Source: a virus. Taken from it: 64,000 nt of DNA. Position numbers and translations under genes: made by a program. The notes under the pieces were generated by a model. The model was not told the DNA's origin, did not search any database, and saw nothing but the letters and a program-made list of their open reading frames with translations. Position 1 is the first letter of the stretch. Each line of letters opens with the position of its first letter. The stretch spans positions 1 to 64,000 of the IMG/VR virus record IMGVR_UViG_3300042731_004843. One strand, written 5' to 3'. Of the stretch, positions 2,690-63,800 are shown one piece after another.

Positions 2690-2923
2690 ATGGATCAACG
2701 CCTAATTGGGCTCTTCAGCGAGCTGGAAAAGATCGGGGTTAACAAGGGCCTATCCCATTTCACGCAGAGTCGTGGTGGGCGCCGACCTATCAGAGTCGAC
2801 AAGCTGCTGGAGAAGGAGAAGGCGTTTCTCCCCAAAGCACAAGACGACGATGCCTCCGAGGATGGGAAGGACCATGAGATGGAGGGAGGTCTCGGCATGG
2901 GTGAAGGCGCCACGGAGGGCTGA
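2690..2923 (+). CDS. Small tagged protein with N-terminal FSELEKIG motif
   Basis: A 77-residue protein of unknown function. The ATG at 2690 is preferred, but in-frame GTG codons at 2684 and 2666 are possible. It begins MDQRLIGLFSELEKIG, the first of several proteins here with a short amphipathic motif ending in ELEKI(A/G) near an end. The rest is basic up to about residue 45 and then acidic and Gly-rich, with no recognisable fold. It sits between the partial hub-like gene and a membrane protein that carries the same type of motif (FFDELVKLA). The shared motif suggests a common destination such as the virion interior; that is inference. Confidence 0.7.
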   Translation: MDQRLIGLFSELEKIGVNKGLSHFTQSRGGRRPIRVDKLLEKEKAFLPKAQDDDASEDGKDHEMEGGLGMGEGATEG

Positions 2924-2924
2924 C

Positions 2925-3449
2925 ATGTACGGCTCATTTTTCGATGAACTGGTCAAGTTGGCCAAGGACGAGACTGGCGAGAAGATCATGCGTGGTGCGG
3001 TGGCTGCCAGACCGTGGGCCCAGAGGTTTGTTACAGCCGGGATACCTGCAGCTGTGGCGGCCAACTTTTTTCTGCCTATGAAGGACAGTCCTTTGAAGCG
3101 TAAGCTGATAGCCGGCTCCGGACTTCTAGGCGGTGGGGCCGGTGTGGGGGAGTTGGCCGTACGTAGATGGGCGGAGAAGAACCCTCGTAAGGGTTTGGCT
3201 AAAGAGATCAAGAAGATGGGCGCGGCACAGGCGTTCCTGAAGGTGGCCGCCATGGCCGCAGATCTACGCAAAGCCGGTATCGGTGGGGTAGAGAGGCCGC
3301 CGCTGATTACGGAGGACAGCAAGGAGCACGCGTACAACAGGCTGCGGCAGTCGGCTAAGCCTGGCGAGTTCCTGTCCGCCACAAAGCCCCGCCATCTCAA
3401 GGCCCCAGGGCCGTCGATCAAACAGATCTCCGCCCTCCCAACGGGGTAG
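2925..3449 (+). CDS. Tagged hydrophobic protein (FFDELVKLA)
   Basis: A 174-residue protein of unknown function. The frame is open further upstream, but the start is placed at ATG 2925, two bases after the previous stop and behind the ribosome site CGGAGGG. It opens MYGSFFDELVKLAKDE, a variant of the recurrent tag. Two small-residue-rich hydrophobic stretches follow, about residues 33-50 and 60-80, the second very Gly/Ala-rich; they could be membrane helices. The C-terminal half is basic and polar. Tag, hydrophobic middle and basic tail would fit an internal virion protein ejected with the genome, but no family is recognised. Confidence 0.75.
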   Translation: MYGSFFDELVKLAKDETGEKIMRGAVAARPWAQRFVTAGIPAAVAANFFLPMKDSPLKRKLIAGSGLLGGGAGVGELAVRRWAEKNPRKGLAKEIKKMGAAQAFLKVAAMAADLRKAGIGGVERPPLITEDSKEHAYNRLRQSAKPGEFLSATKPRHLKAPGPSIKQISALPTG

Positions 3450-3452
3450 ATA

Positions 3453-4223
3453 GTGGACGCCGTCAGTGACTTCCTGGAAGCGCTTGGCCAGGTCAAGGAG
3501 GCCGCGGTCAAAGACTTGCGTAAGCGGCAGGCGCAAGAGATGCAGATGTGGGAGCGGTGGAAGCAGGGTGGGGAGAAGCCACAAGACTTGCGTCCGCTCA
3601 TACACTCGTTCAAGCCTCTAGTAAGTCACCAGGCCAACATCTGGGCTGGTAAGGTGCGTGACGTACCTCCAGCGGCTATCCGGGCGGAATTCACCAACCA
3701 GTTCGTTTCCGCTCTTCAGACTTATGATCCACAGCGCGGAGCAGGACTCGGTACGCACATACGGCACCAGCTGAAGAAAGCGCAACGGTTCGTCACAACG
3801 TATCAGAATCCTGGCAGGATCCCAGAGAATCGGGTCTACCGCATACGGGAGCTGCAAGACGCAGAGATGCAGCTGGATGAGCGCTTTGGTAGAGAGCCTA
3901 CACAGCTCGAGATAGCTGACCACCTGAAGTGGTCCCCGAAACAGGTGGACGTGCTCCAGAGGGAGGTCCGCAAAGCACGACCAACGGGTCAGTTCGAGAC
4001 GGACCCATCTACGTTCACCCCGTCCAGGCAGAAAGAGGTTCTGCGCCTGCTGCCCTACGAGCTAACATCTGACGAGAAGCAGGTGTTCGAGTACATCTAC
4101 GGCGTGGGCGGGAAACCAAAACTCGGGCCCGGTCAGATAGCCCGGAAGCTGAAGATGAGCGCCCCTAAGATCTCCAGACTTAAGCGCTCCATAGCTGAAA
4201 AGTACGCGAGGCATTCAAGCTGA
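3453..4223 (+). CDS. Sigma-70-family RNA polymerase sigma factor
   Basis: A 256-residue protein starting at GTG 3453. It carries the sigma-70 layout in order. A region 2-like segment (about 45-110) includes YDPQRGAGLGTHIRHQLKKA, matching the F-D-P-x-R-G-x-x-F-x-T-Y core. A region 3-like segment (about 118-175) reads RIPENRVYRIREL and later FGREPTQLEIADHLKWS. A region 4-like helix-turn-helix (about 195-254) reads GPGQIARKLKMSAPKISRLK. Region 1 is absent. The first residues, DFLEALGQVKEAA, resemble the short motif shared by other proteins here. Because the same window encodes its own beta/beta-prime polymerase (60842 on), this is most likely the promoter-recognition subunit of a phage RNA polymerase, or one that redirects the host enzyme. 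Which of these is inference. Confidence 0.85.
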   Translation: MDAVSDFLEALGQVKEAAVKDLRKRQAQEMQMWERWKQGGEKPQDLRPLIHSFKPLVSHQANIWAGKVRDVPPAAIRAEFTNQFVSALQTYDPQRGAGLGTHIRHQLKKAQRFVTTYQNPGRIPENRVYRIRELQDAEMQLDERFGREPTQLEIADHLKWSPKQVDVLQREVRKARPTGQFETDPSTFTPSRQKEVLRLLPYELTSDEKQVFEYIYGVGGKPKLGPGQIARKLKMSAPKISRLKRSIAEKYARHSS

Positions 4224-8145: not shown

Positions 8146-8973
8146 ATGAAGACCGCTTTAGTTGTTTCTGGAGGCGGTTCCCGCGGTGCGTTTGCTGTTG
8201 GGGTGCTAGAAGTTCTACGGGAGAGGGGTTGGGAGTTCGACATCATCAGCGGGACCAGTACTGGTGCTTTGATCGCGTCTCTGGCTTCCATTGGAGACAT
8301 AGACGAGCTGGTGCGGATTTACACCTCGGTTCGAACAAAAGACATTCTGCGCCTCAACTGGCGGCGTTTGTTCAAGGACGCCATTTACGACACGAAGCCG
8401 CTAGAGAAGCTGATTCGAAAGACCATGAAGGGGGACCGTTACGAGAGGTTGATGGCGGCCCAAACCACCACGCTTTTCTGCCGCATAGCCTTGCGGTCGG
8501 GGAACATACTGTATGGGTCCCAGAGGGCTATCTCAGGGCATGAAGACGTCGTTCCTTGGGGAGACTTCAATGGGTACGTCAAGGCGCTGCTCTCCTCGAC
8601 TAATGAGCCCTTGTTCATGCCACCTATCGAAATTGACGGGCAGACTTGTTTGGATGGCGGGGTCAGGGAAGTGGTTCCCTTCAGGATCGTGAAGTCTCTT
8701 GGTGCCCACAAAGTGGTAGTCATAGCGAATGGCCCCGTGGACCCGGCGCCTACAGACAAATCGTATTCTTGCGTACTGGACACGGGGTTCAGGGCGATTG
8801 ATCTGATGACTACGGAAATAACCAACGACGATCTGGTTGGTGTTGGCAACAACGTGACTGTGATCCGCCCCACAGCCCCTCTTCCTGGTAGCTCGTTGGA
8901 GTTCATCCCGGAGGAGATGCAGGAGCTGCGAACCATTGGCCAGAATCGAGCAAGGGAAGTCCTATCCTTGTAG
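8146..8973 (+). CDS. Patatin-like phospholipase
   Basis: A 275-residue patatin-family serine lipase. The oxyanion-hole motif GGGSRG is at residues 9-14, the nucleophile elbow GTSTG at 36-40 with catalytic Ser38, and the Asp of the Ser-Asp dyad is in DGG at 170-172. All key residues are present, and length and order fit bacterial patatins, which release fatty acids from phospholipids. There is no signal peptide or membrane helix, so it would act inside the cell or ride in the virion. It lies in a structural operon, one base after the preceding stop. It could aid lysis, membrane remodelling or entry; the sequence does not say which. Confidence 0.92.
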   Translation: MKTALVVSGGGSRGAFAVGVLEVLRERGWEFDIISGTSTGALIASLASIGDIDELVRIYTSVRTKDILRLNWRRLFKDAIYDTKPLEKLIRKTMKGDRYERLMAAQTTTLFCRIALRSGNILYGSQRAISGHEDVVPWGDFNGYVKALLSSTNEPLFMPPIEIDGQTCLDGGVREVVPFRIVKSLGAHKVVVIANGPVDPAPTDKSYSCVLDTGFRAIDLMTTEITNDDLVGVGNNVTVIRPTAPLPGSSLEFIPEEMQELRTIGQNRAREVLSL

Positions 8974-10816: not shown

Positions 10817-11764
10817 ATGGCGGTCATCAAAGTCAAGATCTTCGTGCCGGAAATAGACAACGTCATATCCCTGTTCGACGTGATTCAGGTCCAACGTTCG
10901 GAAGCGGGATCCCCGTATACGGACGCTAAGGACATTACCGCCGACACGGCCCAAAAACCAGTGCTGGTGGGCGCAGAGGAAGGGCCATTCGCGTCTCTGC
11001 AGGGGAAGACACTGAGGCTGAAAGTGGATGGGGGACTCGAGCAGGAAGTCACGTTCACGGCAGCAGATCCCATCAGCCTCAGCAATGTCATCGCTGAGTT
11101 CAACACGGAGATCTCCGGGGCGACCGCGGACGATGACGGCACGGGTAAGCTGCAGATAGAGGGCAACGCCCCAGGTACAGTAGGCACCCTGGAGATGACG
11201 GGCGGCACCGCACTGGCCATACTGGGCTTCGTCACGGGAGACAAGGATAACGGGGAAGACAGTCACCCCACTCTGCTCCCAGGGGTGGATTCTTACGAGT
11301 ACGATGATCAAAGCGGGCAGGCGTCGTACTGGTACAGGACCAGGTACTACAACACTGGCGACGGTACGGTAAGCTCGTACTCGGACTGGGTACAGGGCTC
11401 GACTGGTGCGGTCATCGATCCTGCCGAGCTTATCGTGGGTAAGATCAAATTGGCCGGGGTGGACGGCACGGCAATGGTGGGGGCCAAGATCTCCATCGTG
11501 AACACCTACAGTCCGTTGGTTGCTGATGAGCACTTCATAGCCGGACGTAACCTGCAGATAGAGACGGATGGGTCCGGTTATGCAGAGACGACACTAATCA
11601 GAAATTCCATTGTGGACGTGGTCATCGAGGGCACGTCCTTCATCCGCCGAATCCAGGTCCCCGCCACCGGTACGGAGTTCGATCTGATGGACGAGAGCCT
11701 GGTACTGGATGATCCGTTCCAGATCCAGGTACCGGACTTGCCGGCGGCAGTGAGGAGAAGCTGA
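10817..11764 (+). CDS. Multidomain baseplate/tail-type protein with hook-like module
   Basis: A 315-residue protein with three beta-rich parts. Residues about 62-140 form a hook-like module (TLRLKVDGGLEQEVTF, VIAEFNTEISG, LEMTGGTALAILGF) that recurs in the products starting at 14280, 17831 and 22576. Residues about 155-190 hold a Tyr/Trp-rich strand pair (ASYWYRTRYYNTGDG) resembling fibronectin-type domains. Residues about 205-290 (VGKIKLAGVDGTAMVGAKIS) resemble a carboxypeptidase-regulatory-like fold found again in the product at 13023. Domain sharing points to baseplate or tail surface. Confidence 0.78.
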   Translation: MAVIKVKIFVPEIDNVISLFDVIQVQRSEAGSPYTDAKDITADTAQKPVLVGAEEGPFASLQGKTLRLKVDGGLEQEVTFTAADPISLSNVIAEFNTEISGATADDDGTGKLQIEGNAPGTVGTLEMTGGTALAILGFVTGDKDNGEDSHPTLLPGVDSYEYDDQSGQASYWYRTRYYNTGDGTVSSYSDWVQGSTGAVIDPAELIVGKIKLAGVDGTAMVGAKISIVNTYSPLVADEHFIAGRNLQIETDGSGYAETTLIRNSIVDVVIEGTSFIRRIQVPATGTEFDLMDESLVLDDPFQIQVPDLPAAVRRS

Positions 11765-12291
11765 TGCCAGGACGTAAGAGCTATGGGCCGGGTGGAAAGT
11801 GGATCCATGATCGCGCCCACGGGTTGATGGATGAGCGCAAGAAGGGGAGCCTGACCGAGCGGTATGGGGACAAGAAGGGCAAGTCGATCGCCTACGCTAT
11901 CGCTACTCAACAGGCCCACAAGGTCGGTAAGAGCCCGAAAGGCTTCCGCACTACAGAGGGCGTCCGCGAGGCTAAGCAGAAGTTCGATAAGCCGAAGAAG
12001 GAGTACCAGAAGACGGCGGCTCGCACAGGACGCTTACTTAGGATGACGGATTCCATCGTCAGAAAAGGTGGAGATAAAGCTCCAGGCAAGCTGATAGATG
12101 CCGCCAAGAGACTCGGTAAAGCGGTTGAGCAGTCTAACGTCCGGCGTGGACTGGATACTGCGGAACAAGCAACCAAACACATGACCGATAAGCAGAGAAA
12201 CAATATCTTCATGAAGGCTATAGAGAATATGGGCAAGACCGGCAGCATTTCTTTGTCCTCCTTCTTTGATGAGCTGCAGCAGATCCAATGA
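11764..12291 (+). CDS. Basic protein with GKSIAYAIATQQAHKVGK motif and C-terminal tag
   Basis: A 175-residue strongly basic protein. Residues about 35-60 (YGDKKGKSIAYAIATQQAHK) match a motif I recall from small basic proteins of many phages, usually of unknown function. The last residues are SLSSFFDELQQIQ, the same motif that other proteins here carry near their N-terminus, now at the very C-terminus. The next gene starts in an ATGA overlap with this stop and carries FFGELEKIG at its own N-terminus. The charge suggests nucleic-acid binding, possibly packaged with DNA; this is inference. Confidence 0.8.
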   Translation: MPGRKSYGPGGKWIHDRAHGLMDERKKGSLTERYGDKKGKSIAYAIATQQAHKVGKSPKGFRTTEGVREAKQKFDKPKKEYQKTAARTGRLLRMTDSIVRKGGDKAPGKLIDAAKRLGKAVEQSNVRRGLDTAEQATKHMTDKQRNNIFMKAIENMGKTGSISLSSFFDELQQIQ

Positions 12292-12785
12292 GGCGAACCT
12301 TGACCACGACCATCAAAAGCTCGCTACCGGCATTCTTCGGTGAGCTCGAGAAGATTGGGCAAGCTCCGGGGTCATTAGCTCATCGGGCACAATTGGGCGC
12401 TCCGGGGGCCTGGGGCAGTCTGGGGTCGTCTGGTGGGGCCTCCTCTGGTGGGGCCTCCTCCGGTGGTGTTTCCCCGCCAACTGGGCCAGGAAGTAGCGGC
12501 GGAGCAGGGGCGAGCATGCCTAAGCCGCCGACGGCCGGAGAGATGGGGGGCGGGATGAGTGCTGCAGATCTGGGTCTTTCCGGCTCTAACCCCCCGCCTA
12601 TCCAGGCGCCCACCCAACCGCAGCAGCCCATGTCAGCTACCGGTACGCCGCCCCCAGGTGCACCGGCTACTGCGCCCGGGTCTTTGGCCAGTCCACAAAG
12701 GAAGAAGGGCTTCGGTACTGGTACACTATCGTCTGCTGAGAGCGCTGAGGTAGCCCCACCATCAGCATCTGAGTTTGGAGGCTAG
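12288..12785 (+). CDS. Tagged low-complexity Gly/Ser/Pro protein
   Basis: A 165-residue protein. Residues 1-25 contain SLPAFFGELEKIGQAPG, one of the clearest copies of the recurrent tag. Everything after about residue 30 is low complexity: Gly-Gly-Ala-Ser-Ser repeats (three near-identical GGASSGG units around nucleotides 12430-12475), then Pro- and Gly-rich sequence without predicted structure. A structured tag on a disordered chain is what one would expect of a virion-targeted internal or linker protein. No function is recognised. Confidence 0.7.
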   Translation: MRRTLTTTIKSSLPAFFGELEKIGQAPGSLAHRAQLGAPGAWGSLGSSGGASSGGASSGGVSPPTGPGSSGGAGASMPKPPTAGEMGGGMSAADLGLSGSNPPPIQAPTQPQQPMSATGTPPPGAPATAPGSLASPQRKKGFGTGTLSSAESAEVAPPSASEFGG

Positions 12786-12787
12786 TT

Positions 12788-13006
12788 ATGCTGCCCATGG
12801 TCAGCTTCTTCGAGGAGATGGAGAAGATAGCCCTCGTGGGCCCGCTTATCGGGCAGGCCGTCAAGTACCCAGGCATGGTAGGCTGGCGACTGCATCAGAT
12901 CGAAGAAGGTAAAGGCGCACACAGGCGCATGATGCAGAACATAGAGCGGGGCGTTCCCGCCGGTTGGGCGGCCCTGGGGATGCGTCCGAGAGATACCAGG
13001 CGATAG
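12788..13006 (+). CDS. Small tagged protein (SFFEEMEKIA)
   Basis: A 72-residue protein beginning MLPMVSFFEEMEKIALVGPL, the third tagged protein in a row. The remainder is a short amphipathic, basic sequence (GWRLHQIEEGKGAHRRMMQN). Because the tag takes up nearly a quarter of the chain, the tag itself must be a large part of what the protein does. It is followed after 16 bases by a strong ribosome site (GGAGGAATAG) for the next gene. Confidence 0.7.
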   Translation: MLPMVSFFEEMEKIALVGPLIGQAVKYPGMVGWRLHQIEEGKGAHRRMMQNIERGVPAGWAALGMRPRDTRR

Positions 13007-32821: not shown

Positions 32822-33094
32822 ATGCATGAGGCTAGTATGCAGGCGCTTCAAAGTGAGCTGGAGAAAATAGCCAAGACGAAGGGGAGCAGGCGCCTTGCGG
32901 AAGCTATGTTTGGTAGGCTTCGTGCAGCGAGGGGAGGCGGCGTTAAGGGCAGCGAAGTGGGCGCGTTCAGGAAGTTGCGTAGGGCGAACTACGGACCATC
33001 GGAAGCGGCGGGAGCTATCGATAAGGCTAGATGGCGCGGCGATCAGTACGTGAAGGTGCCTGAAGGTTACGGCCATCGCTACATAGATTTTTAG
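32822..33094 (+). CDS. Small basic tagged protein (LQSELEKIA)
   Basis: A 90-residue, strongly basic protein starting MHEASMQALQSELEKIAKTK, another clear copy of the recurrent tag. The rest is Arg/Lys/Gly-rich (RLRAARGGGVKGSEVGAFRK) and ends in an aromatic stretch (VPEGYGHRYIDF). The charge suggests nucleic-acid binding. It sits between two membrane proteins and just before the polyvalent protein that carries related motifs internally. Confidence 0.72.
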   Translation: MHEASMQALQSELEKIAKTKGSRRLAEAMFGRLRAARGGGVKGSEVGAFRKLRRANYGPSEAAGAIDKARWRGDQYVKVPEGYGHRYIDF

Positions 33095-43175: not shown

Positions 43176-45143
43176 TTACGCCTTTGCGCTAGACCACGAG
43201 TACCCCATACCTCCGTCGACATCGAGGGGGACCAGAAGGTCCTCATCAAAGGGGTGCTCCATGATGTTGCAGACGATCCCCATGGCCTCTTTGGCGTGGA
43301 CCTCGGGTACCTCGAACATGAGCTCGTCGTGCACCTGTAGGAGCATCTCTGCTCCAAGGGATCGTAGCTCTGGGCTGAACTCGCACTTGATCATGGCCAT
43401 CTTGGCCACATCAGCCGCAGAGCCCTGGATCACACTGTTGACTGACTGCCGCTCACACTGAGCCAGCAGGGACTTGGCAGAACCCGGCAGACCCCAACGA
43501 CCCGTCTTCTGCATCATGGGGCCGATGGACGCCATGTCGTGGAACCGCCGTGGCCTACCCAGGATGGTCTCCACCATAGCGTGCTCAGCGATGAAGCCGT
43601 GCACTCCGTTGATGAAGTCACGAACCAGTGGATACGGCTGGAAGTACTGCTCCTTCAGCTCCTTGGCCCGGTCCTTTGAGACACCCAGCGTGTTAGCCAG
43701 CTTCTCAATACCCTCTCCGTAGTTCAACCCGAAGCCGATGGTCTTCGACGCCTGGCGGGCGAAGCACATGTCCTTCTCGAGCTGGCTTAGCTGGACACTG
43801 GGGTCTATGGCTGCCGCTTTCTTTCTCTTCCCAGCAGCCTTGATGTCCTCGTACTCATGGCCGAACATCAGCGAGGCCGTACCAGTGTGGATGTCCCAGC
43901 CCTTACGGATAACGTCGATCATGTTGGGGTCTTGGGAGTAGTGGGCCATGAGCCGCATCTCCAGCTGCTCGTAGTCCACGACGATCAGGATGTGGTCCTG
44001 CTTGGGCATGAACGCGGACCTGATGCCGAATTCATCTCCACCAGGACGGGGTACGTTCTGTAGGTTGGGATCCACAGAACTGAGTCGGCCAGTGACGGCC
44101 ACATGCTGGGTGAGGGTTGGGTGTATGCGCAGGTCGTCATCGGCCCACTTACGCAAACCATCTACGTAGGTGCCCTTCATCTTGACCAGGCCACGTATAC
44201 CCAGCACCAACTGTGCTGCCTCCACGCCTTTGGCGGCCAGCTTGGTCAGCACTTCTACGTCAGTGGACGGCTGCCGATTGCCGCTCGTACCACCAGAGGT
44301 GTACTTGGTAGGGGCTAGGCCCAACTTCTTGAACAGCAGTTCCCGCAGCTGCTGCACGCTGTTCGGGTTCATCTCCCGGCCTGCAATTCTGTTCAACTTC
44401 TTGTGCAGGTCGTCGATGCGCTCTTGGATCTTGGGGGACAGCTCGTCCAGGTACCCGACATCCACCATCACTCCACGCCGGCAGCATTCGTACAGCACTC
44501 GGGTAAAGGGCGCCTCCACTTCATCGAAGTAGTCCCAGAGACACATACCGTCCAGGCTATGCTGAGACTCCAGCTCCTCTCGCAGGTACTTGTACACTCG
44601 GAAGGTAGCCCAGGCGTCCAGAGATGCGTAGGAGTGTGCTTTCATTGGTTGTTCGAGCAGAACGCGCATGAACCGCTGCGCTACATCCTCACCTTTCTTG
44701 CGTTCTGGGAAGACGGACTTGAACTCGTTCATGTTGAGACCGAGGTGGTCCCACGCAGTTTCCTTCAAGCCGTGGCGGCCCATCCGGTTCTCGTCATAGA
44801 GCCAATCCATGGCCAGGGTGCAGTACGCATCACCTTTAGGCACCATGACGCCGGAGTTATGCAGCATGCAGAAGTCGAACGTCTGGTTGGTGAAGTACCA
44901 CTTCAGGTCCGAGTCGTTAGCCAGTTCTTTGTCGTAGAGATCTAACATCTCCCTAGACAGGCAGTACCGGGAACCTTCATCAGGACATGCTGACCACAAG
45001 ATCACATGGTCACGTGCCCTGTTTATGCCGGTGGTCTCTGTATCTAGGGCGCACTCTCCTGTGTCCCGTACATGCCTGGCGAACTGCATGAAACCTTCGC
45101 CAGTGTCCACGTAGGTAACTGGGGGGACGTACTGAGTTGCCAT
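43176..45143 (-). CDS. Family A DNA polymerase
   Basis: A 655-residue polymerase from ATG 45143 with GGAGGG just upstream. Proofreading exonuclease motifs: Asp34/Glu36 (ALDTETTG), NQTFDF, and YASLDA. Polymerase motif A is DYEQLEMRLMAH, motif B RQASKTIGFGLNYG and motif C QVHDELMFEVP. GRLSSVDPNLQNVPRP is also conserved. There is no 5' nuclease domain, as in T7-type enzymes. It is the main replicative polymerase of the phage, beside primase, helicase and SSB-like genes. Its translation start sits inside paired hairpins (45147-45186), so regulated translation is possible. Confidence 0.93.
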   Translation of the reverse strand: MATQYVPPVTYVDTGEGFMQFARHVRDTGECALDTETTGINRARDHVILWSACPDEGSRYCLSREMLDLYDKELANDSDLKWYFTNQTFDFCMLHNSGVMVPKGDAYCTLAMDWLYDENRMGRHGLKETAWDHLGLNMNEFKSVFPERKKGEDVAQRFMRVLLEQPMKAHSYASLDAWATFRVYKYLREELESQHSLDGMCLWDYFDEVEAPFTRVLYECCRRGVMVDVGYLDELSPKIQERIDDLHKKLNRIAGREMNPNSVQQLRELLFKKLGLAPTKYTSGGTSGNRQPSTDVEVLTKLAAKGVEAAQLVLGIRGLVKMKGTYVDGLRKWADDDLRIHPTLTQHVAVTGRLSSVDPNLQNVPRPGGDEFGIRSAFMPKQDHILIVVDYEQLEMRLMAHYSQDPNMIDVIRKGWDIHTGTASLMFGHEYEDIKAAGKRKKAAAIDPSVQLSQLEKDMCFARQASKTIGFGLNYGEGIEKLANTLGVSKDRAKELKEQYFQPYPLVRDFINGVHGFIAEHAMVETILGRPRRFHDMASIGPMMQKTGRWGLPGSAKSLLAQCERQSVNSVIQGSAADVAKMAMIKCEFSPELRSLGAEMLLQVHDELMFEVPEVHAKEAMGIVCNIMEHPFDEDLLVPLDVDGGMGYSWSSAKA

Positions 45144-54276: not shown

Positions 54277-55641
54277 ATGCATACTGGATCTATCGTCGAC
54301 TTCTACGATGACCCTCAGGGACTAGTTCTGAAGAATCGTCTGCCGCAAGAAGGCGTACCGGACTTCATCAAGCAGGCAGAGTTTCTAGATGAGCATACCC
54401 GCGGCACCTTACCGGACGATGTATTTGCCCTGGTCATGGTCGACCGTGGCGAGAAGCTGCGCAAGTTCGCCTGTGTAGACAAGGGTAATGTGGCCCTCAA
54501 CGTGATCTACTTCATGGAGAACCGGGACCGCCTACCAGAAGAGGCCCAGAAGACTGCTGCGGCTAACCTGGCTAGGGCCTGTTCTTGGTTCGACCTGGCA
54601 GTACCTATGGGACTGGACAAGGAGGCGGGATTTTCTAGCCTGTTGAAGGCCCCTAGCAAGCTGGTGGGCGGGGGTATGGCTGCCGCAGATATAGGCGGCA
54701 GGGTCTCTGCAGGCAAAGAACGCCACCGACAGATGACGCGCACGGCCGACATGATCGGCTCCAACGTCATGCCCACCTCCGGTAGCAAGGAAAAGGCAGC
54801 AGCTCCTTCTACCCGTTCGGCTCTACGGGAACTGGACAAACAGAGAGCCGCAGATCCGGATCTACAGCGTAAGCTGAAGCGTACTAGAGCAGACATGAGG
54901 GCCAACCCGAGTAAGTACACCCTAAAGTCGGCCGCACTCCAGCCATATGTGGACGTCACGGGGCAGAGGCCGCCGGAGAGGATCAAGCAGGCTAGCGCGG
55001 AACGGCACTGCTTGATTAAAGAAGGTCAGGCACACTTTCCGATCGACAGCTATGGCCAGATCAAGCAAGCGTCGGTTTGGTTTGACGAGTACGGGCACAC
55101 ACTGCACCCAGCAGAGCGCCGGGAGTACTGCACCAAGCTAGCATCCAGGGCGGACGAAGTCGGCATCGAGGTCAGTGATCTCATTCGAAAATACGGGTCA
55201 CCGGGCTATGCCACGGATGGAGAAGTGAACGTCGCGGTCTGTACCAGGATGCAGCATTGGGCAGACGATGCGCCTGAGCGTGACATGCTGAAGGGGTTGA
55301 TGGAGAAAGCTGCTTCAGTCTCCCCGGATGTTTTCTGTGAAGCTCTCCGGCAGTTCGATGAAGCCACGGGCATGGACCATCTGTGGGACGATGAGATCTA
55401 CGACCCCTGGTTTTCCACGTACGGCTTCAAGAAAGAGGCCGCGTGGTCCTGGCAGAGCGGAAACGACAGAGTAACGGAAGCGCAACTAAAGCTGTCGGCT
55501 AAGAAAGACTTCTTGGCTATCCGTGAAGCGTTCGGGTTGGAGGTGGCGGAGGAGTACAGGAAGAACCCCCAGCAGGTATTTGACTCCATGCCATTGGATT
55601 CTAAGCGCATTCTTACGCGCATGGCCAACGACCCCCTGTAG
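54277..55641 (+). CDS. Virion-associated protein with repeated K-x-A motifs
   Basis: A 454-residue protein behind CACGGAGAG. Residues about 40-110 form a domain (LPDDVFALVMVDRGEKLRKF, then YFMENRDRLPEEAQKTAAAN) that I recall from large phage virion proteins, without a known role. It also has six short segments of one type: LDKEAG, LKSAAL, IKQASA, IKQASV, LMEKAA and KKEAAW, often between predicted domains. These resemble the tag and the MEKSA sites of the polyvalent protein. It starts the head-gene run. Multiple cleavage sites would suit a prohead core or internal protein; this is inference. Confidence 0.75.
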   Translation: MHTGSIVDFYDDPQGLVLKNRLPQEGVPDFIKQAEFLDEHTRGTLPDDVFALVMVDRGEKLRKFACVDKGNVALNVIYFMENRDRLPEEAQKTAAANLARACSWFDLAVPMGLDKEAGFSSLLKAPSKLVGGGMAAADIGGRVSAGKERHRQMTRTADMIGSNVMPTSGSKEKAAAPSTRSALRELDKQRAADPDLQRKLKRTRADMRANPSKYTLKSAALQPYVDVTGQRPPERIKQASAERHCLIKEGQAHFPIDSYGQIKQASVWFDEYGHTLHPAERREYCTKLASRADEVGIEVSDLIRKYGSPGYATDGEVNVAVCTRMQHWADDAPERDMLKGLMEKAASVSPDVFCEALRQFDEATGMDHLWDDEIYDPWFSTYGFKKEAAWSWQSGNDRVTEAQLKLSAKKDFLAIREAFGLEVAEEYRKNPQQVFDSMPLDSKRILTRMANDPL

Positions 55642-55644
55642 GAT

Positions 55645-56535
55645 ATGGCTACCCACGAAGAGCAGCTGCTGGGCCTCCTGGAGAAGATAGGCCAGCCGGA
55701 AGAGACCACTGCCGAGGTCCCGTCTGTACTGGACGGGACCTCCAATGACGATCACGTCGAGACGTACGGCTCTTCCGAGGACCCCAACACGGAGGCTGAG
55801 CACGAAGAGCTGGCGGCAGCCAATACTGACCGGCAAGGGATGCCGGAAGGTGCGCTGTCCCCAGTCACGAAGCGGAACATGTGGGTGCATCACGACACCC
55901 ACCCGGTAACATATGATGTGGCCCTCCTGGGCACGTACGGCACAGACTGGTTTGAGTGGGAGCCCGGTACCCTCTGGCGTGAGATCAGAGAGGACTTCCG
56001 GGTACCCTCTATCAATGACCACGCCAAGGCCAAGATACAGGCGGCGAAGACGCTGCACATCAATGAATGGTACTGGACGAAGTGGGAAGTGTTCTGCTGG
56101 ATCACGCAGGCCTTGAACAACAATATCCCGGACTTCCATGTACTCCAGAAGCCTTCCATAGCGCAGCTGATGCAGTCTGTAGACGCCGCTACGATGGTAC
56201 GCAATGACGTGGAGTTCACCCCAGAGCTCCAGATGTTCGTGGCGGCTGCGATGGTAGAGTCCGGTGTATTCTATGCCCCGAAGCCCATAGACTTTTGCCA
56301 GGACGAGATCGAGACGCTGCTTGACGAGCTTCAGATAGATAAGAGCTTGATCGGGCAAGTACAGAGCAGGTGGCGAGAGGTGAAGCAGATCTCTCCAGAG
56401 GCGTGGGCGCGTTCTCCAGAACCCGTACTGCGGGAAGACGTGGTAGACATCCAGGTAGCCAAATTGAAAGTAGCGTGCGATTATCTGGATCTACGTCGTC
56501 GCCAACTGCAGGAGCAACTGAGGCTGCTCAAATGA
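55645..56535 (+). CDS. Tagged head-proximal protein (LLGLLEKIG)
   Basis: A 296-residue protein beginning MATHEEQLLGLLEKIGQPEE, the recurrent motif. An acidic linker follows (about 20-70: SSEDPNTEAEHEELAAANTD), then a folded region (WVHHDTHPVTYDVALLGTYG, NEWYWTKWEVFCWITQALNN) and a C-terminal helical part. It overlaps the next gene by 4 bases. Its position before the portal suggests a head or neck component; the fold is not recognised. Confidence 0.75.
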   Translation: MATHEEQLLGLLEKIGQPEETTAEVPSVLDGTSNDDHVETYGSSEDPNTEAEHEELAAANTDRQGMPEGALSPVTKRNMWVHHDTHPVTYDVALLGTYGTDWFEWEPGTLWREIREDFRVPSINDHAKAKIQAAKTLHINEWYWTKWEVFCWITQALNNNIPDFHVLQKPSIAQLMQSVDAATMVRNDVEFTPELQMFVAAAMVESGVFYAPKPIDFCQDEIETLLDELQIDKSLIGQVQSRWREVKQISPEAWARSPEPVLREDVVDIQVAKLKVACDYLDLRRRQLQEQLRLLK

Positions 56536-57506
56536 AGCACATCACGGCTCCCCACATGCATGGTTTCGTAAATGGGTTGACGAAGGAAGCCATCAACATG
56601 CGCAGCTTTATGGATCTCTACCGCAGAGCCGCCGGAAAGACTATTCCGGGGCACATTGGGAGGGCCACCAGCGCTATCAAGGACACGGCCAAGAAGCATC
56701 TGTCTGGTAGATACGGACGGCAGGTTGCCCTGGGCGCAGGCCTCGGTGCTGCAGGCGGTGCCGCTACTGGTGACGACGAGAACTGGAAAACTAGGGCGCT
56801 ACAGGGCGCGCTGATCGGTGGTACTGCTGCTGGCGGCCGTATTTTGGGCACAAAGGTTGGTAGGCAGGCTGCATCGGAAGCCACCAAGAGGTTCGGTGAG
56901 CGCCAGCTATACACCTTGACCGGCAAGGGATTCAAAGGCCGGGAGGTTGGCCTTGAGGACGCCAAAAGATTGGGGATCCTCAAGGTTCCGGAGTGGGAGA
57001 AGCTAAAGGATACTCCGGGCGCTGTTAGCCGGGCCGTCTCCAAGGTCACCGGGAAGCCGGCAAAGACGCAGCTGGGCCGGGAAGCTGGGCGCTATGCTGC
57101 CGATGTAGAGGCTTTCCAGAAGGGCTTTCAGAACATCCCTGGTGTGGTGCACGGCGCTCTGACCCGACCTGGGGAACTCCTACGTAGTGGTTGGCAGAGG
57201 GCAGGTACAGCTGGGAAAGTCTTCGCTGGAGCCGGCGCTCTCGAGGCAGCACGCGCAGCGACCAAGAAACCGGAGGCCGGGGATCCGGGTAGGGCTCAAG
57301 CTGCTCTTGGCAGCTTGGGGCGCACGGCCGGTTACTTGGTGGCCCCCGGGGCTATGCTGGGGCAGGTAGCGGTGGGTGGCCTGGCTGGTAAGGGCGGAGA
57401 GGCCGTGGGGAAGATAGGTGATGTGGCGTCTAAGGCCAGGAAGGCCGCGATCCAAGTCCCGTACCAGCAGTATGCTGACCTAGCCCCGTACTACGGTGGG
57501 AGGTAG
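56532..57506 (+). CDS. Glycine-zipper-rich internal/ejection-type protein
   Basis: A 324-residue protein. The start is placed at ATG 56532 in an ATGA overlap; the longer frame before it is in the upstream gene. The N-terminus (GFVNGLTKEAINMRSFMDLY) has a variant of the recurrent motif. Much of the chain is Ala/Gly-rich (VALGAGLGAAGGAATGDDEN, LQGALIGGTAAGGRILGTKV, VAPGAMLGQVAVGGLAGKGG), with glycine-zipper-like repeats that can insert into membranes. It precedes the portal gene. Internal proteins that form an ejection channel look like this; the role is inferred. Confidence 0.72.
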   Translation: MKHITAPHMHGFVNGLTKEAINMRSFMDLYRRAAGKTIPGHIGRATSAIKDTAKKHLSGRYGRQVALGAGLGAAGGAATGDDENWKTRALQGALIGGTAAGGRILGTKVGRQAASEATKRFGERQLYTLTGKGFKGREVGLEDAKRLGILKVPEWEKLKDTPGAVSRAVSKVTGKPAKTQLGREAGRYAADVEAFQKGFQNIPGVVHGALTRPGELLRSGWQRAGTAGKVFAGAGALEAARAATKKPEAGDPGRAQAALGSLGRTAGYLVAPGAMLGQVAVGGLAGKGGEAVGKIGDVASKARKAAIQVPYQQYADLAPYYGGR

Positions 57507-57508
57507 TC

Positions 57509-59530
57509 TTGTCCGGCGCTAGTACGCAATCTGCGTCCAGGTTCTCCAGTCGTGGTCGTTCTGGTGGAGCGCAGGACTACGGACTCCAGTACCCCAGCCC
57601 CTTCTTCGACATCGGGCAGACCTATCTCCCGGCCACCGTCAAGCAGATGTTCAGGTGGTGTAGGTACTATTACTTGGTCAACCCGCTGATCAACGCGGTG
57701 GTGTCCAAGATGGCGGAGTACCCCATCACCGACGTGCTGTTTGACACAGAGCGGACAGAGCTGAAGGACAGGTGGACAGGCTTCCTGCTGGACCATCTGC
57801 GGTACCGGGCGTTCCAGGTAGAGGTGGGGCTGGACTACTACACCTACGGTAACGCGCTTGTCTCGATCTTCTATCCGTTCTTGAAGTTGTTGGAGTGCCG
57901 CTCATGCGGCAACAAGCAGTGGGCTAAGGACGCAGAGTACAGGTTCCAGAACTATCAGTTCTACATGGTGTGCCCCAAGTGTGGGAACCATGGTCCGGCT
58001 CGAGCTTACGACCGGTACATCAAGGCGTCTAAGGGCATCAGGCTGCTTAGATGGAACCCGGAAGACGTAGACATACGCTACAACGACATCACGGGGGAGT
58101 ACGAGTACTACTACTCTATCCCGACCCAGCTCCGCAACGACATCATCATCGGCAAGAAGTCCACGGTAGAGACCGTTCCCCAGCTCTTCATAGACGCTCT
58201 GCGCCTGAAGAAGTCTGTGGTCTTCTCCCGCGACAACATCTACCACTTCAAGCGTCCAACTTTGGCGGGCAAGGACAGGGGGTGGGGTACCCCCATGATC
58301 CTCCCGGTTCTGAAGGACACGTACTACCTTCAGATCATGCGGAAGGCCCAGGAAGCCATCGCCCTCGAGCACATAGTGCCTCTGAGGGTGATCTTCCCAC
58401 AAGCCGGTTCAGCTACATCTGATCCTTTCACGTCCGTGAATCTGCAGGACTGGAGAGATCAGGTAGCCGGTGAGATCAGACGCTGGAGAGCGGACAACAA
58501 CTACATCCCAATTATGCCCCTGCCTCTAGGTCACCAGACCATCGGCGGCGACGGGCGTGCGCTCCTGCTGTCGCAAGAGATACGGGTCTGGTCCGAGCAG
58601 ATCGTGGCCGGTATGGGCATCCCTGTCGAGCTAGTGTTCGGAGGGTTGAGCTACTCTGGTAGCAACGTCTCCCTGCGCATGCTCGAGAACACCTTCCTGG
58701 GCTATCTCCAGGATCACCATTCGATGCTTAAGTGGATCATCAAGAGCACATCTGCGTATCTTGGTTGGTCCCCCGTCCGGTCCAGGTTCAAGCCGTTCAA
58801 GATGGCCGACGACCTGCAAAGAAAGGCGTATCTCTTCCAGCTCAATCAGGCCGGCAAGCTGTCGGACGAGTCCCTTTTGGCGGACGCTGACTACGATTCC
58901 GCCAAGGAGGACTTGATCATGGAGCGCGAGAGCACCCGTAGGGCGAGTGCTCATAAGAAGCGTGTCCTACAGGACGCGGACATGCAGGGCGAGGCACAGA
59001 TGGTCCAGATGAAGTGGCAGTCCAAGATGCAGGCGCAGCAGATGAAGACGGAAGCTGCTATGCAGAATGAGATAGCCAAGGACCAGGCAGCCTTCCAGGG
59101 TGAGCAGCAGAAAGACCTGATGGGCGCGCAGATGGCCATGCAGCAGGGAGGGCAGCCAGCGGAAACGGCACCAGAGATGCGGCCATCGCCAAGACGCCCA
59201 GAACTGATAGAGCCGCCGGAGCAGATCAAGTCGCCACTAACTGCTAGGTCTATGCAACCGATTCCTGCTGGGGCGACAGGAGAGTCCTTGCAGGGCAAGT
59301 CCAACATAGACCTCCTGCTTTTGGGTCGTAGGCTGGCGGACCAGCTGAACACACTGCAGCCAGTACAGAAGCAGCAAGCACTGTCCGAGCTCAGAGTCAT
59401 GCAACCAGAGCTGCATGATGTCGTTTTGGGGCTAATGGTATCAGGGGGAGCTAGAGCCTCTGCCGCAGCGGCCCGACCTCTGCCTGAACAGAAGCCGGCC
59501 CGCCGCGGACCAGAAGCGCAACTAGTCTAG
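57509..59530 (+). CDS. Portal protein with zinc-ribbon insertion
   Basis: A 673-residue protein from TTG 57509, behind a GGGAGG ribosome site. Residues about 30-125 (TVKQMFRWCRYYYLVNPLIN, VEVGLDYYTYGNALVSIFYP) are portal-like. The wing and stem follow (GWGTPMILPVLKDTYYLQIM, GMGIPVELVFGGLSYSGSNV, NVSLRMLENTFLGYLQDHHS). Cys130, 133, 155 and 158 form CxxC-x21-CxxC, a zinc ribbon not usual in portals. The C-terminus from about 480 is Gln/Met-rich coiled coil and then disordered. It forms the dodecameric DNA gate at the capsid vertex. Confidence 0.85.
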   Translation: MSGASTQSASRFSSRGRSGGAQDYGLQYPSPFFDIGQTYLPATVKQMFRWCRYYYLVNPLINAVVSKMAEYPITDVLFDTERTELKDRWTGFLLDHLRYRAFQVEVGLDYYTYGNALVSIFYPFLKLLECRSCGNKQWAKDAEYRFQNYQFYMVCPKCGNHGPARAYDRYIKASKGIRLLRWNPEDVDIRYNDITGEYEYYYSIPTQLRNDIIIGKKSTVETVPQLFIDALRLKKSVVFSRDNIYHFKRPTLAGKDRGWGTPMILPVLKDTYYLQIMRKAQEAIALEHIVPLRVIFPQAGSATSDPFTSVNLQDWRDQVAGEIRRWRADNNYIPIMPLPLGHQTIGGDGRALLLSQEIRVWSEQIVAGMGIPVELVFGGLSYSGSNVSLRMLENTFLGYLQDHHSMLKWIIKSTSAYLGWSPVRSRFKPFKMADDLQRKAYLFQLNQAGKLSDESLLADADYDSAKEDLIMERESTRRASAHKKRVLQDADMQGEAQMVQMKWQSKMQAQQMKTEAAMQNEIAKDQAAFQGEQQKDLMGAQMAMQQGGQPAETAPEMRPSPRRPELIEPPEQIKSPLTARSMQPIPAGATGESLQGKSNIDLLLLGRRLADQLNTLQPVQKQQALSELRVMQPELHDVVLGLMVSGGARASAAAARPLPEQKPARRGPEAQLV

Positions 59531-60841: not shown

Positions 60842-63800
60842 ATGGCGCGTCTTTCCCCGGAAGAGAGCTTCGAAATTCTCAAGGACCGGGTCGCAGAGAC
60901 AGTCGGCGGGCTCTTCCCGATCGTAGGGAAGAAGCACACACTGGAACTGGGACAGGTCGACGTCAACGACAGGCTTCATATAGACGACATCCGTTCACAG
61001 AAGGAGGCCAAGCTGGGTAGCCGGACTTGGGCCGTCCCTGTGGAAGCTAAGGTCGTCTTACGAGACAACGACACAGGCAAGAGGGTGGATGAGCAAAAAC
61101 TCCGCCTCATGAGCTTGCCCAAGCACACCAGGCGCTACTCCCACATCGTCGATGGCCAGGAGTACCAGATCGACAACCAGTGGCGGCTGAAGTCCGGGGT
61201 CTACGCTCGAGTGAAGGACAATGGGGAGCTGAAGTCAGAGTTCAACCTGGCCAAGGGCAGGGGCTTCAGCTTGGGGTTCGACCCCAAGAACCGCCAGTTC
61301 CACATGTCGTACGGCACCTCCAACATACCGCTGGCCCCGCTGCTGCAAGAGATGGGTGTGCCACAAGCCAAGATACAGGAGCAATGGGGCTCTGCTATTG
61401 CCCAAGAGAACGATAAAGACGTAGAGCAGGCAGTACTGAAGTTCTACAAAGCCTCTACGGGTAAGAAGGCGGACGACTACGAGCAGGCGCGGCAGTACAT
61501 GAAGGACACGCTGACCGCGACAGAGCTGCGCCCAGACACTACGAAGGTCACGCTGGGCAAAGGGTACAAGTCGGTGACTGGGGACGCTTTGATGGATGCG
61601 TCTACCAAGCTGCTGCGCATATCCCAGGGTAAAGCAGAGCCAGATCCCAGAGACTCCTTGATGTTCAAGGACCTGCACAGCACGGAGGACTTTTTCGCTG
61701 AGCGGATCCAAAAGAGTGGTCGGGACATCACCCGGCGCATACAAAACACTCTAGATCGGAAGAAGCGTGTCAGCGACATCGTCGGCCCGGACGTCTTCAA
61801 TCGCCCCATCAGGACTATGTACCGCACTTCCCTGGCGAATGTCCCAGATCAAACCAACCCCTTGGAGATGATGTCTGGGCAGATGAAGACCACCATCACA
61901 GGCGAGGGAGGCATCAAGAGTTCGCACGCCATCACTGAGGACGCCAAGCTAGTCGACCCATCACACCTCGGGTATTTGGATCCGATACACACGCCGGAGG
62001 GGGCGTCCACAGGCGTGTCCCTGCGCATGCCTATCGGCGTGAAGAAGAAGGGCCACGATGTCGCCGTCAAGATGTTCAACGTCAAGACAGGCAGACTGGA
62101 GGACGTCAATCCAGAGAAGGCCATGAACTCCACTGTCGTCCTGCCTGACCAAGTTAGGTGGCAGGACGGCAAGCCTACGCCGGCCGGCAAAACGATCAAG
62201 ATGAGTGGGCCAGGTAATGAGATCGTCGAAGGGCCCATGAAGCAGGCGGACTACATCATGCGGGACCCCATACAGATGTTCTCCATGGCATCTAATCTGG
62301 TCCCTTTCGTGGCAGCAGACCACCCGAACCGCAGCACCATGGCGGGGAGGCACATGGAGCAGGCAATACCGCTACAACGGCGCAAGGCCCCCTTGGTGCA
62401 GAGTGTAGCGGGCACCAAGACTTTTGAGCGGGTGATGGGTGATTACGCCGGCCACACCACGCGCTTTGCTGGGGAGGTCGTGGGAATCAAGAAAGACGCC
62501 GTCGTCATCAAAGGAGACGATGGCAAGAATCATGAGGTTCAGCTATACGATCACTTCCCACTCAACGACGATAAAGGCTTCCTCCACTCGACTCCTACGG
62601 TGAAGGTTGGGGACAAGGTTAAAAAGGGCCAGCCGATAGCGGACACCAACTTCACAGATGGTGGGGCCCTAGCTCTAGGCACCAACCTCAAAGTCGGATA
62701 CATGCCCTACAAAGGGTACAACTTTGAGGACGGCATCGTGATCAGTGAAGGTGCCGCAAAGGAGTTGTCCAGCGAGCACCTTTACCGCAAGACCCTACAA
62801 CGAGACCGGCAGCACGTGCTGGACAAGAAGAAGTACCAGGCGTACGCGCCAGATGCCGTAACTCGAGAGCAATCAGACAAGCTCGATGATGAAGGGGTCA
62901 TCAAGCCAGGGCAGGTAGTGTCTCCGGGTGATACCCTGATCGCCGCACTACGCGAGAAGAAGGACACCAAGGAAGATCGCGAGCTCGCACGTATCCACAA
63001 GTCTCTAGTCCGGCCGTACACTGATGCCAGCGTGAAGTGGGAGGCTGACCACCCGGGGGTGGTGCAGGAGGTGGTAAAGAAGGGCAAGAAGTTGGCTGTC
63101 CACGTCAAGACTTTGGAGGCCGCTGAAATCGGGGACAAGATCGCCGGCCGTCACGGCAACAAAGGCATCATCACGAGCATTTTGCCGGATGACGAGATGC
63201 CACAGACCAAAGACGGCAAACCACTACAGATTCTGATGAACCCCACTGGCGTGCCCGGCCGTACTAACCTCGGCCAAGTGCTGGAGACGGCTGTCGGCAA
63301 GATAGCTGAGAAGACTGGTAAGCCGTACACGGTCAAGAACTTCCAGCCTAATGAAGATCTACACGCCAAAGTTACCGCAGATCTGAAGGCGCACGGGCTA
63401 CCTACTGACGGAAAAGAAGAAGTCGTGGACCCAAAGACCGGTAGGGTTTTGGGCAGGATCCTGACGGGGCCACAACATGTGGTCAAGTTGAAGCACCAAG
63501 TAGAGAAAAAGATGATCGCCAGGGCTGGTGGACCTGGCTATGCGTATGACAGGAACCTGGTACCCAAGGGAGGGGGCCCGCACGGGGCGCAGGCTTTGGG
63601 CACTCTCGGCCTCTACTCCATGCTGGCGCATGGCGCTAAGGCCAACTTGAGGGAGATGCAGACTCTCAAGAGTGACGCAGGCCAGAGTGATGAATTTTGG
63701 GCCGCCCTACAGGCTGGGGAAGCGCTGCCGGCGCCACGTCCCACGTTCGCGTACAAGAAATTCACCAGCTATCTCAACGCGCTAGGGGTCAACGTTAAGA

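Follow-up and report, generated by a model that had tools for sequence, protein, structure and literature searches.

The window analysed here, a 64,000-base stretch of viral DNA, corresponds to bases 1-64000 of an IMG/VR record of 108,145 bases, and positions beyond 64000 refer to that record. Genes were called on the record with a simple codon-model caller. Several plus-strand genes of the window encode a ten-residue peptide, hereafter the tag. The tag scan placed GLFSELEKIG (2708-2737) in the 77-aa product of 2690..2923, which is read from the ATG at 2690 (a GTG at 2666 is also possible), and SFFDELVKLA (2934-2963) in the 174-aa product of 2925..3449. Orthologues of the first gene were found in six relatives, five of which keep the tag while one has AEFEKTA; orthologues of the second carry SFFDELQKIS, AFLDELEKIG, and AFWDEITKIA. 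The adjacent genes at 12288..12785 (165 aa) and 12788..13006 (72 aa) encode AFFGELEKIG (12330-12359) and SFFEEMEKIA (12803-12832), respectively, and the gene at 32822..33094 (85-90 aa) encodes ALQSELEKIA (32843-32872). The WIHDRA-domain protein at 11764..12291 differs in bearing the tag at its C terminus (12259-12288), where it ends in ...GKTG-SISLS-SFFDELQQIQ with K-T-G upstream of the tag. Degenerate tags are present in a 296-aa protein (55645..56535; QLLGLLEKIG, 55663-55692) and in a glycine-rich protein of 324 aa (56532..57506; GFVNGLTKEA, 56562-56591), several orthologues of which are canonical.

The neighboring plus-strand genes include a sigma-70-like factor at 3453..4223 (Pfam Sigma70_r3, 2.7e-8; PHROG 351, 7e-7), a late protein of 454 aa at 54277..55641 with six conserved K-x-[AGS] sites, and an inferred portal protein at 57509..59530, the N-terminal sequence of which is common with Arash gp204 and which gave weak PHROG portal matches. 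The open reading frame that starts at 60842 runs through the end of the window to record position 67000 and encodes RNA polymerase beta and beta' fused in a single chain of about 2052 aa (2059 aa in relative G017, 2060 in G018 and G020, and 2391 in G002); its Arash homologues are abundant virion proteins. The start of a patatin-like phospholipase (GGGSRGAFAVG ... GTSTG) was also observed at 8146-8973, inside the late gene region. Apart from the sigma factor and a weak match to a holin, PHROGs and Pfam searches of the tagged window proteins returned nothing, and Rfam and tRNA scans of the window gave no hits.

The phage belongs to a group of large uncultivated contractile-tailed phages, and its major capsid protein has relatives encoded on 307 IMG/VR stretches. 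The closest cultured phages, namely, Salmonella phage Arash, three Vibrio phages, and Bacillus phage G, are all distant, and no megablast match to 24 kb of the window was obtained from cultured phages. The host remains unassigned, as a genome-contig search matched three MAG contigs with taxa unlike one another.

The tag is described by the pattern [AGS]-[FL]-x-[DE]-E-L-x-K-[IL]-[AGS], and its column consensus is [AGS]-[FL]-[FVLY]-D-E-L-E-K-[IL]-[AG], with S also found at the last position. The F lies most often eight residues past the start and the tag no more than about 25 residues from it. In the record, the strict pattern was found nine times, each time within the first 40 residues of a protein and nowhere else, against 0.085 expected in the first 40 residues of shuffled proteins; three of the nine copies lie outside the window, at 79798, 88866, and 89950. 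A six-frame scan, which is independent of the gene calls, gave 112 distinct forward matches compared to 4 raw matches for the reversed pattern. Scanning all of IMG/VR for DNA encoding FDELEKI[AG] yielded 52 stretches, which were split by eye into real-looking tags and chance hits. A literature search for the motif string found only unrelated papers.

The preliminary description of this DNA had claimed a recurring tag near the start of many proteins that share nothing else, and had given for it the expression [FL]-x-x-[EL]-[LM]-[EV]-K-[IL]-[AG]. As written, this expression matched six times in the window and not at all in the remainder of the record, where relaxing it to allow FLMWYI and LMI gave three matches. 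It was considered that the fairest test of recurrence is its use on genomes unseen by its author. In eight such genomes of related phages it matched 23 times, with 20 matches in the first 30 residues against 0.03 expected; the possibility that the motif is no more frequent than chance, which that description had named as refuting it, is thus not borne out. The recurrence therefore held and is stronger than was claimed, with all of the listed peptides present. The absence of other similarity also held: with the tag removed, 97 distinct tagged proteins fell into 34 clusters without detectable similarity to one another. The tag was found to start one residue further upstream than had been noted, a small residue being present there in 60 of 63 cases. 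The position near the protein start held only in part, as the tag is not strictly N-terminal; the C-terminal copy of the 11764-12291 product and internal copies in relatives had been missed. Two products had been listed as carrying weaker forms. The one from 56532 is a true degenerate member, with orthologues AFVDELNKTA, AFVDELTKLG, and AFVDELEKLA. The one from 3453 is not: checked against orthologue leaders, the sigma factor proved to carry a different N-terminal leader, NPxxEFL...K[EQV]A, present here as SDFLEALGQVKEA (3468-3503), rather than the canonical tag. The 55645 peptide is the weakest listed copy, and its orthologues retain LLAVLEKIGQ but never FxDEL. As a separate observation, a second leader class, M(S)NP[VL][DE][DE]FL...K[EQ]A, is common to the sigma factor family (3453-4223) and an unrelated head-module family (record 76268-76990).

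Within one genome the tags share 63-73% nucleotide identity, 29-58% of identical residues use different codons, and the 30 bases after the tag show only random identity between tagged genes. Since the peptide was kept while its codons drifted and the following bases are unrelated, selection on the peptide rather than recent copying was deduced.

Copies outside the N terminus were of two kinds. The tag stands at the very C terminus of three late proteins, from 11764 in the genome of the window (G000), 135344 in G007, and 61902 in G008. In these the K-x-A end is lost or altered, as in SFFDELQQIQ and AFADEMRQIL, the FxDEL core is kept, and K-T-[GS] is present six residues upstream of the tag. In fused proteins, KTA immediately precedes the internal tag, e.g., ...EYQKTA-MLIGLFDELDKIA.... 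One protein of relative G019 consists of an 11764-like domain, an internal tag, and a 12288-like tail, and in the window it is split into two genes, 11764, which ends with the tag, and 12288, which begins with it. The domain concerned, PGRxSYGPxGKWIHDRA...ATQQAHKxGKxPK...EYQKTA, was also seen in relatives with varied tails, its end being KTA, often followed by the tag. Although no cleavage data exist, it is inferred that cleavage at K-[TI]-[AGS] would separate cargo from tag in the C-terminal and internal arrangements alike.

In nine genomes, 57 of the 59 N-terminally tagged genes lie on the late strand, i.e., the strand that carries capsid and terminase (read from the protease gene for G019), and the two exceptions have the lowest or near-lowest tag scores. 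The tagged proteins are mostly small and of unknown function, with one SNF2-type helicase and one InPase (pyrophosphatase)-domain protein among them; both domains are characteristic of polyvalent proteins, for which packaging and injection by phages have been proposed (PMC5512222). To our knowledge there are no virion proteomics data for any tagged phage. For Arash, 116 proteins were detected in virions, including head-module homologues, a sigma factor, and the RNA polymerase as the most abundant (PMC10585845), and its authors state that some of the detected proteins may be carry-over (PMC10585845). A scan of the Arash proteome found no N-terminal tags. The comparison with mass-spectrometry lists of virion proteins that the preliminary description had proposed can thus be made only for head-module homologues and not for the tag.

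The end of the tag matches a motif that recurs in head proteins. KTA was the most over-represented tripeptide in the nine proteomes (225 compared to 114 expected), KIA was seventh, and the proteins rich in KTA, KIA, or KQA were mainly encoded around the protease and capsid genes. Alignment of 12 head-module families gave 58 conserved K-x-[AGS] columns, some of them at the beginning of the major capsid protein and on either edge of the protease. Pooled, these columns read [LMIF]-x-K-[LTVEI]-[ASG], with a hydrophobic residue at K-2 and A (81%), S (10%), or G (8%) at K+2, and the end of the tag fits this exactly. The conserved columns number 10 in the 670-aa family, 8 each in the 305-aa and 449-aa families, 6 each in the 212-aa and 454-aa families, and 5 each in the 127-aa family and the protease, while control motifs (reversed, or with R or E) gave mostly 0-2 conserved columns in the same seven families. 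Tail sheath, fibre, baseplate, and terminase had 0-1. A 655-aa minus-strand protein at 43176 had five such columns but also four for R-x-[AGS], and the RNA polymerase was similarly unspecific. When tag cores were chosen blind to the K-x-A part, x-K-x-[AGS] came next in 76 of 98 N-terminal cores compared to 24 of 94 internal ones. Over the whole Arash proteome, KTA and KIA were not enriched, and the K-x-A enrichment there was weak and dependent on the tripeptide.

Of 59 sequences of the major capsid protein family, 58 have K-x-A at residues 24-26, directly before the segment alignable with the Arash capsid protein, which has a K-E-A nearby. The same protein (record 82377-83498) has K-[IV]-A at residues 301-303, invariant in 60 of 60 sequences and inside the fold. 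This second site is probably structural and unlikely to be cut, and therefore not every K-x-A is a cleavage site. The solved chain of the phage G capsid has its full N terminus and no K-x-A there, which is compatible with the model and proves nothing. Because the last half of the tag fits a motif conserved across head-module families, K-x-A is proposed to be, probably, the cleavage site of the head maturation protease; this is inferred from sequence alone, without cleavage data.

The protease itself was assigned to the gene at 76994-79039. Its product matched Arash gp222 (2e-34) and phage G gp19 (2e-13) by tblastn, and phage G gp19 (2.6e-19) and Arash gp222 (2e-6) in turn match the head maturation protease phrog_18299; its own PHROG match was weak and to phrog_2774 only. 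As the model of the whole protein was too poor (mean pLDDT 50), the fold search was restricted to the modelled catalytic domain (pLDDT 83), which found phage G gp19, a number of proteins annotated as prohead proteases, and, with a weaker match, T4 gp21 (5jbl; prob 0.92, E 0.065). Fold matches of this domain in the PDB were weak (E above 0.03), and a PDB sequence search with the protease gave no match. The alignment contains an invariant H-x-N-[KE] and S-M, and the catalytic His and Ser were assigned by pattern only. K-x-A sites just before and just after the catalytic domain are conserved from the window group to Arash and phage G, the pattern expected for protease self-cleavage. It was concluded, partly from model prediction, that the gene very probably encodes a T4-gp21-like head maturation protease, as supported by sequence homology through relatives and by fold. 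The protease gene was found in 13 of the 22 contigs with real-looking tags, including all 10 of those over 62 kb, and in 1 of the 13 chance-hit contigs. In some relatives the protease is 930-1340 aa, with a large insertion between the flanking K-x-A sites that is intein-like by appearance only (L029 435-3560, L022 2-2857, L065 3807-6632, L083 3662-6556, and G002 141237-145256).

Between the protease and capsid genes lies the gene for the 212-aa family (79125-79763), in which an internal segment is conserved, [SA]-[FYM]-V-[QDN]-E-L-x-x-I-x-K-x-A. Its E and I are present in 52 of 53 sequences, and the positions at which it is invariant correspond to those of the tag core. This family may be the scaffold, an assignment based solely on where its gene lies, its composition, and its conserved sites. 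N-terminal tags are absent from Arash and D69, where the protein with the best tag-like score is the one whose gene directly follows that of the protease; this score may be due to chance.

From these data the tag is proposed to be a capsid-targeting peptide combined with a maturation-cleavage site, like the T4 capsid-targeting sequence (CTS) in function and not homologous to it in sequence. This reading is considered likely on indirect evidence and without bench data; it is supported by the late-strand genes, the co-occurrence with the protease, the K-x-[AGS] end, the match of the core to the scaffold-like protein, and the injected-type cargo. The first part, [AGS]-F-x-D-E-L-x-x-I, is the core of the tag, an amphipathic helix through which the protein would dock into the prohead core as this grows; it would most likely do so by mimicking the conserved segment of the scaffold-like protein. 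The second part, [LMIF]-x-K-[ITLVE]-[AGS], would be the cut site at which the head maturation protease removes the tag from the packaged protein, as it would cut the scaffold, the capsid protein, and itself. Once processed, the cargo would remain in the head and pass into the host together with the DNA. What the sequences themselves show is the tag and how it is distributed, the conserved K-x-A sites, the homology of the protease, and the scaffold-like segment, while docking, cleavage at K-x-A, packaging, and injection are all inferred and have not been directly measured. The suggestion of a T4-like targeting peptide made in the preliminary description is therefore supported only indirectly, there being no experimental proof of packaging or removal, and the separable cleavage element had not been recognised in it.

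The peptide could instead be a cleavage site only, marking the end of a propeptide, with the proteins reaching the head by other means. In favor of this, orthologues in G020 retain only the K-x-A part of the tag (EFEKTA or EFEKAA), and many head proteins have K-x-A without FxDEL. It is nevertheless thought unlikely, since C-terminal copies that lack the K-x-A end still conserve FxDEL, from which a role of its own is deduced for the core. We likewise doubt that the tag docks cargo to a virion-packaged RNA polymerase or to the portal for an early-infection complex, with proteolysis being secondary. The fused beta-beta' polymerase is encoded close by, its homologue ranks first in abundance among Arash virion proteins, and the sigma factor carries the variant leader; however, within the head module it is the scaffold-like protein, not the polymerase or the portal, that carries the conserved internal match to the tag core.

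Two further explanations can hardly be maintained. Bacteriocin double-glycine leaders (E-L-x-x-I-x-G-G), which serve secretion and processing, have the same E-L-x-x-I spacing in an amphipathic helix, but copies of the tag are also C-terminal and internal, and the column composition after the tag lacks the G-G expected before the cleavage point, the residue after its [AG] being A, G, E, Q, L, V, or F. Recent copying of a single gene start at the DNA level, without selected function, would account for the many copies per genome, but it is refuted by the codon drift at identical residues and the random identity of the bases that follow.

The capsid-targeting reading matters because most head-packed, injected phage proteins go unrecognised, having no common family. 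If it is correct, the tag identifies injected proteins by sequence, with 97 distinct ones already listed, a new head-protease specificity is predicted, and a second, independent tag for loading chosen proteins into phage heads would be added beside the T4 and P1 systems. A bolder version, which we would neither back nor dismiss, is that the tag is a clade-wide modular zip code, consisting of a scaffold-mimicking core and a K-x-[AGS] cut site placed at either end of or between unrelated proteins, which would build and exchange the injected proteome so that packaged and injected proteins could be read from the genome sequence.

Several known systems resemble the tag in part. Encapsulin cargo-loading peptides are short, portable peptides that load unrelated proteins into an HK97-fold shell. 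They are like the tag in being short and portable but differ in being mainly C-terminal, in not being removed, and in loading a cellular compartment. Polyvalent proteins resemble the tagged cargo in containing domains of the SNF2 helicase and InPase types, for which packaging and injection are predicted (PMC5512222), but here such domains occur singly, each behind a tag; no description of an import tag was found in the relevant sections of that paper. DarB of phage P1 is a polyvalent protein that includes a helicase module (PMC5512222), and its first 30 or so residues are enough to direct a reporter into the head (PMC9024508), but that signal is described on DarB and not as a short motif recurring on dozens of proteins. 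The head proteases of SPN3US and phiKZ also use a short cleavage motif that recurs in propeptides and ejection proteins (A-x-E in SPN3US; PMC10052503), but the SPN3US propeptides are mostly 111-254 residues rather than a common ten-residue tag, and the motif here is [LMIF]-x-K-x-[AGS]. In T4, a short N-terminal CTS is likewise found on unrelated internal proteins (IPI, IPII, IPIII, and Alt) processed by gp21. The T4 site, L/I-x-E with E at P1, is not met by tags such as FFDELEKIA, which end in L-x-K-[IL]-[AGS] with A, G, or S predicted at P1, and the tagged phages differ further in having many more cargo types, C-terminal and internal copies, and no close cultured relative. The likenesses extend to the protease fold, which resembles gp21, to the core and scaffold proteins of T4, which are cut at the CTS's own motif, and to Alt, which also has a C-terminal propeptide reminiscent of the C-terminal tags here. 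Within the ten-residue T4 CTS, residues 4 and 7 direct packaging and residues 8 and 10 direct processing (PMC9026906), so that targeting residues come first and processing residues last, as is proposed for the tag.
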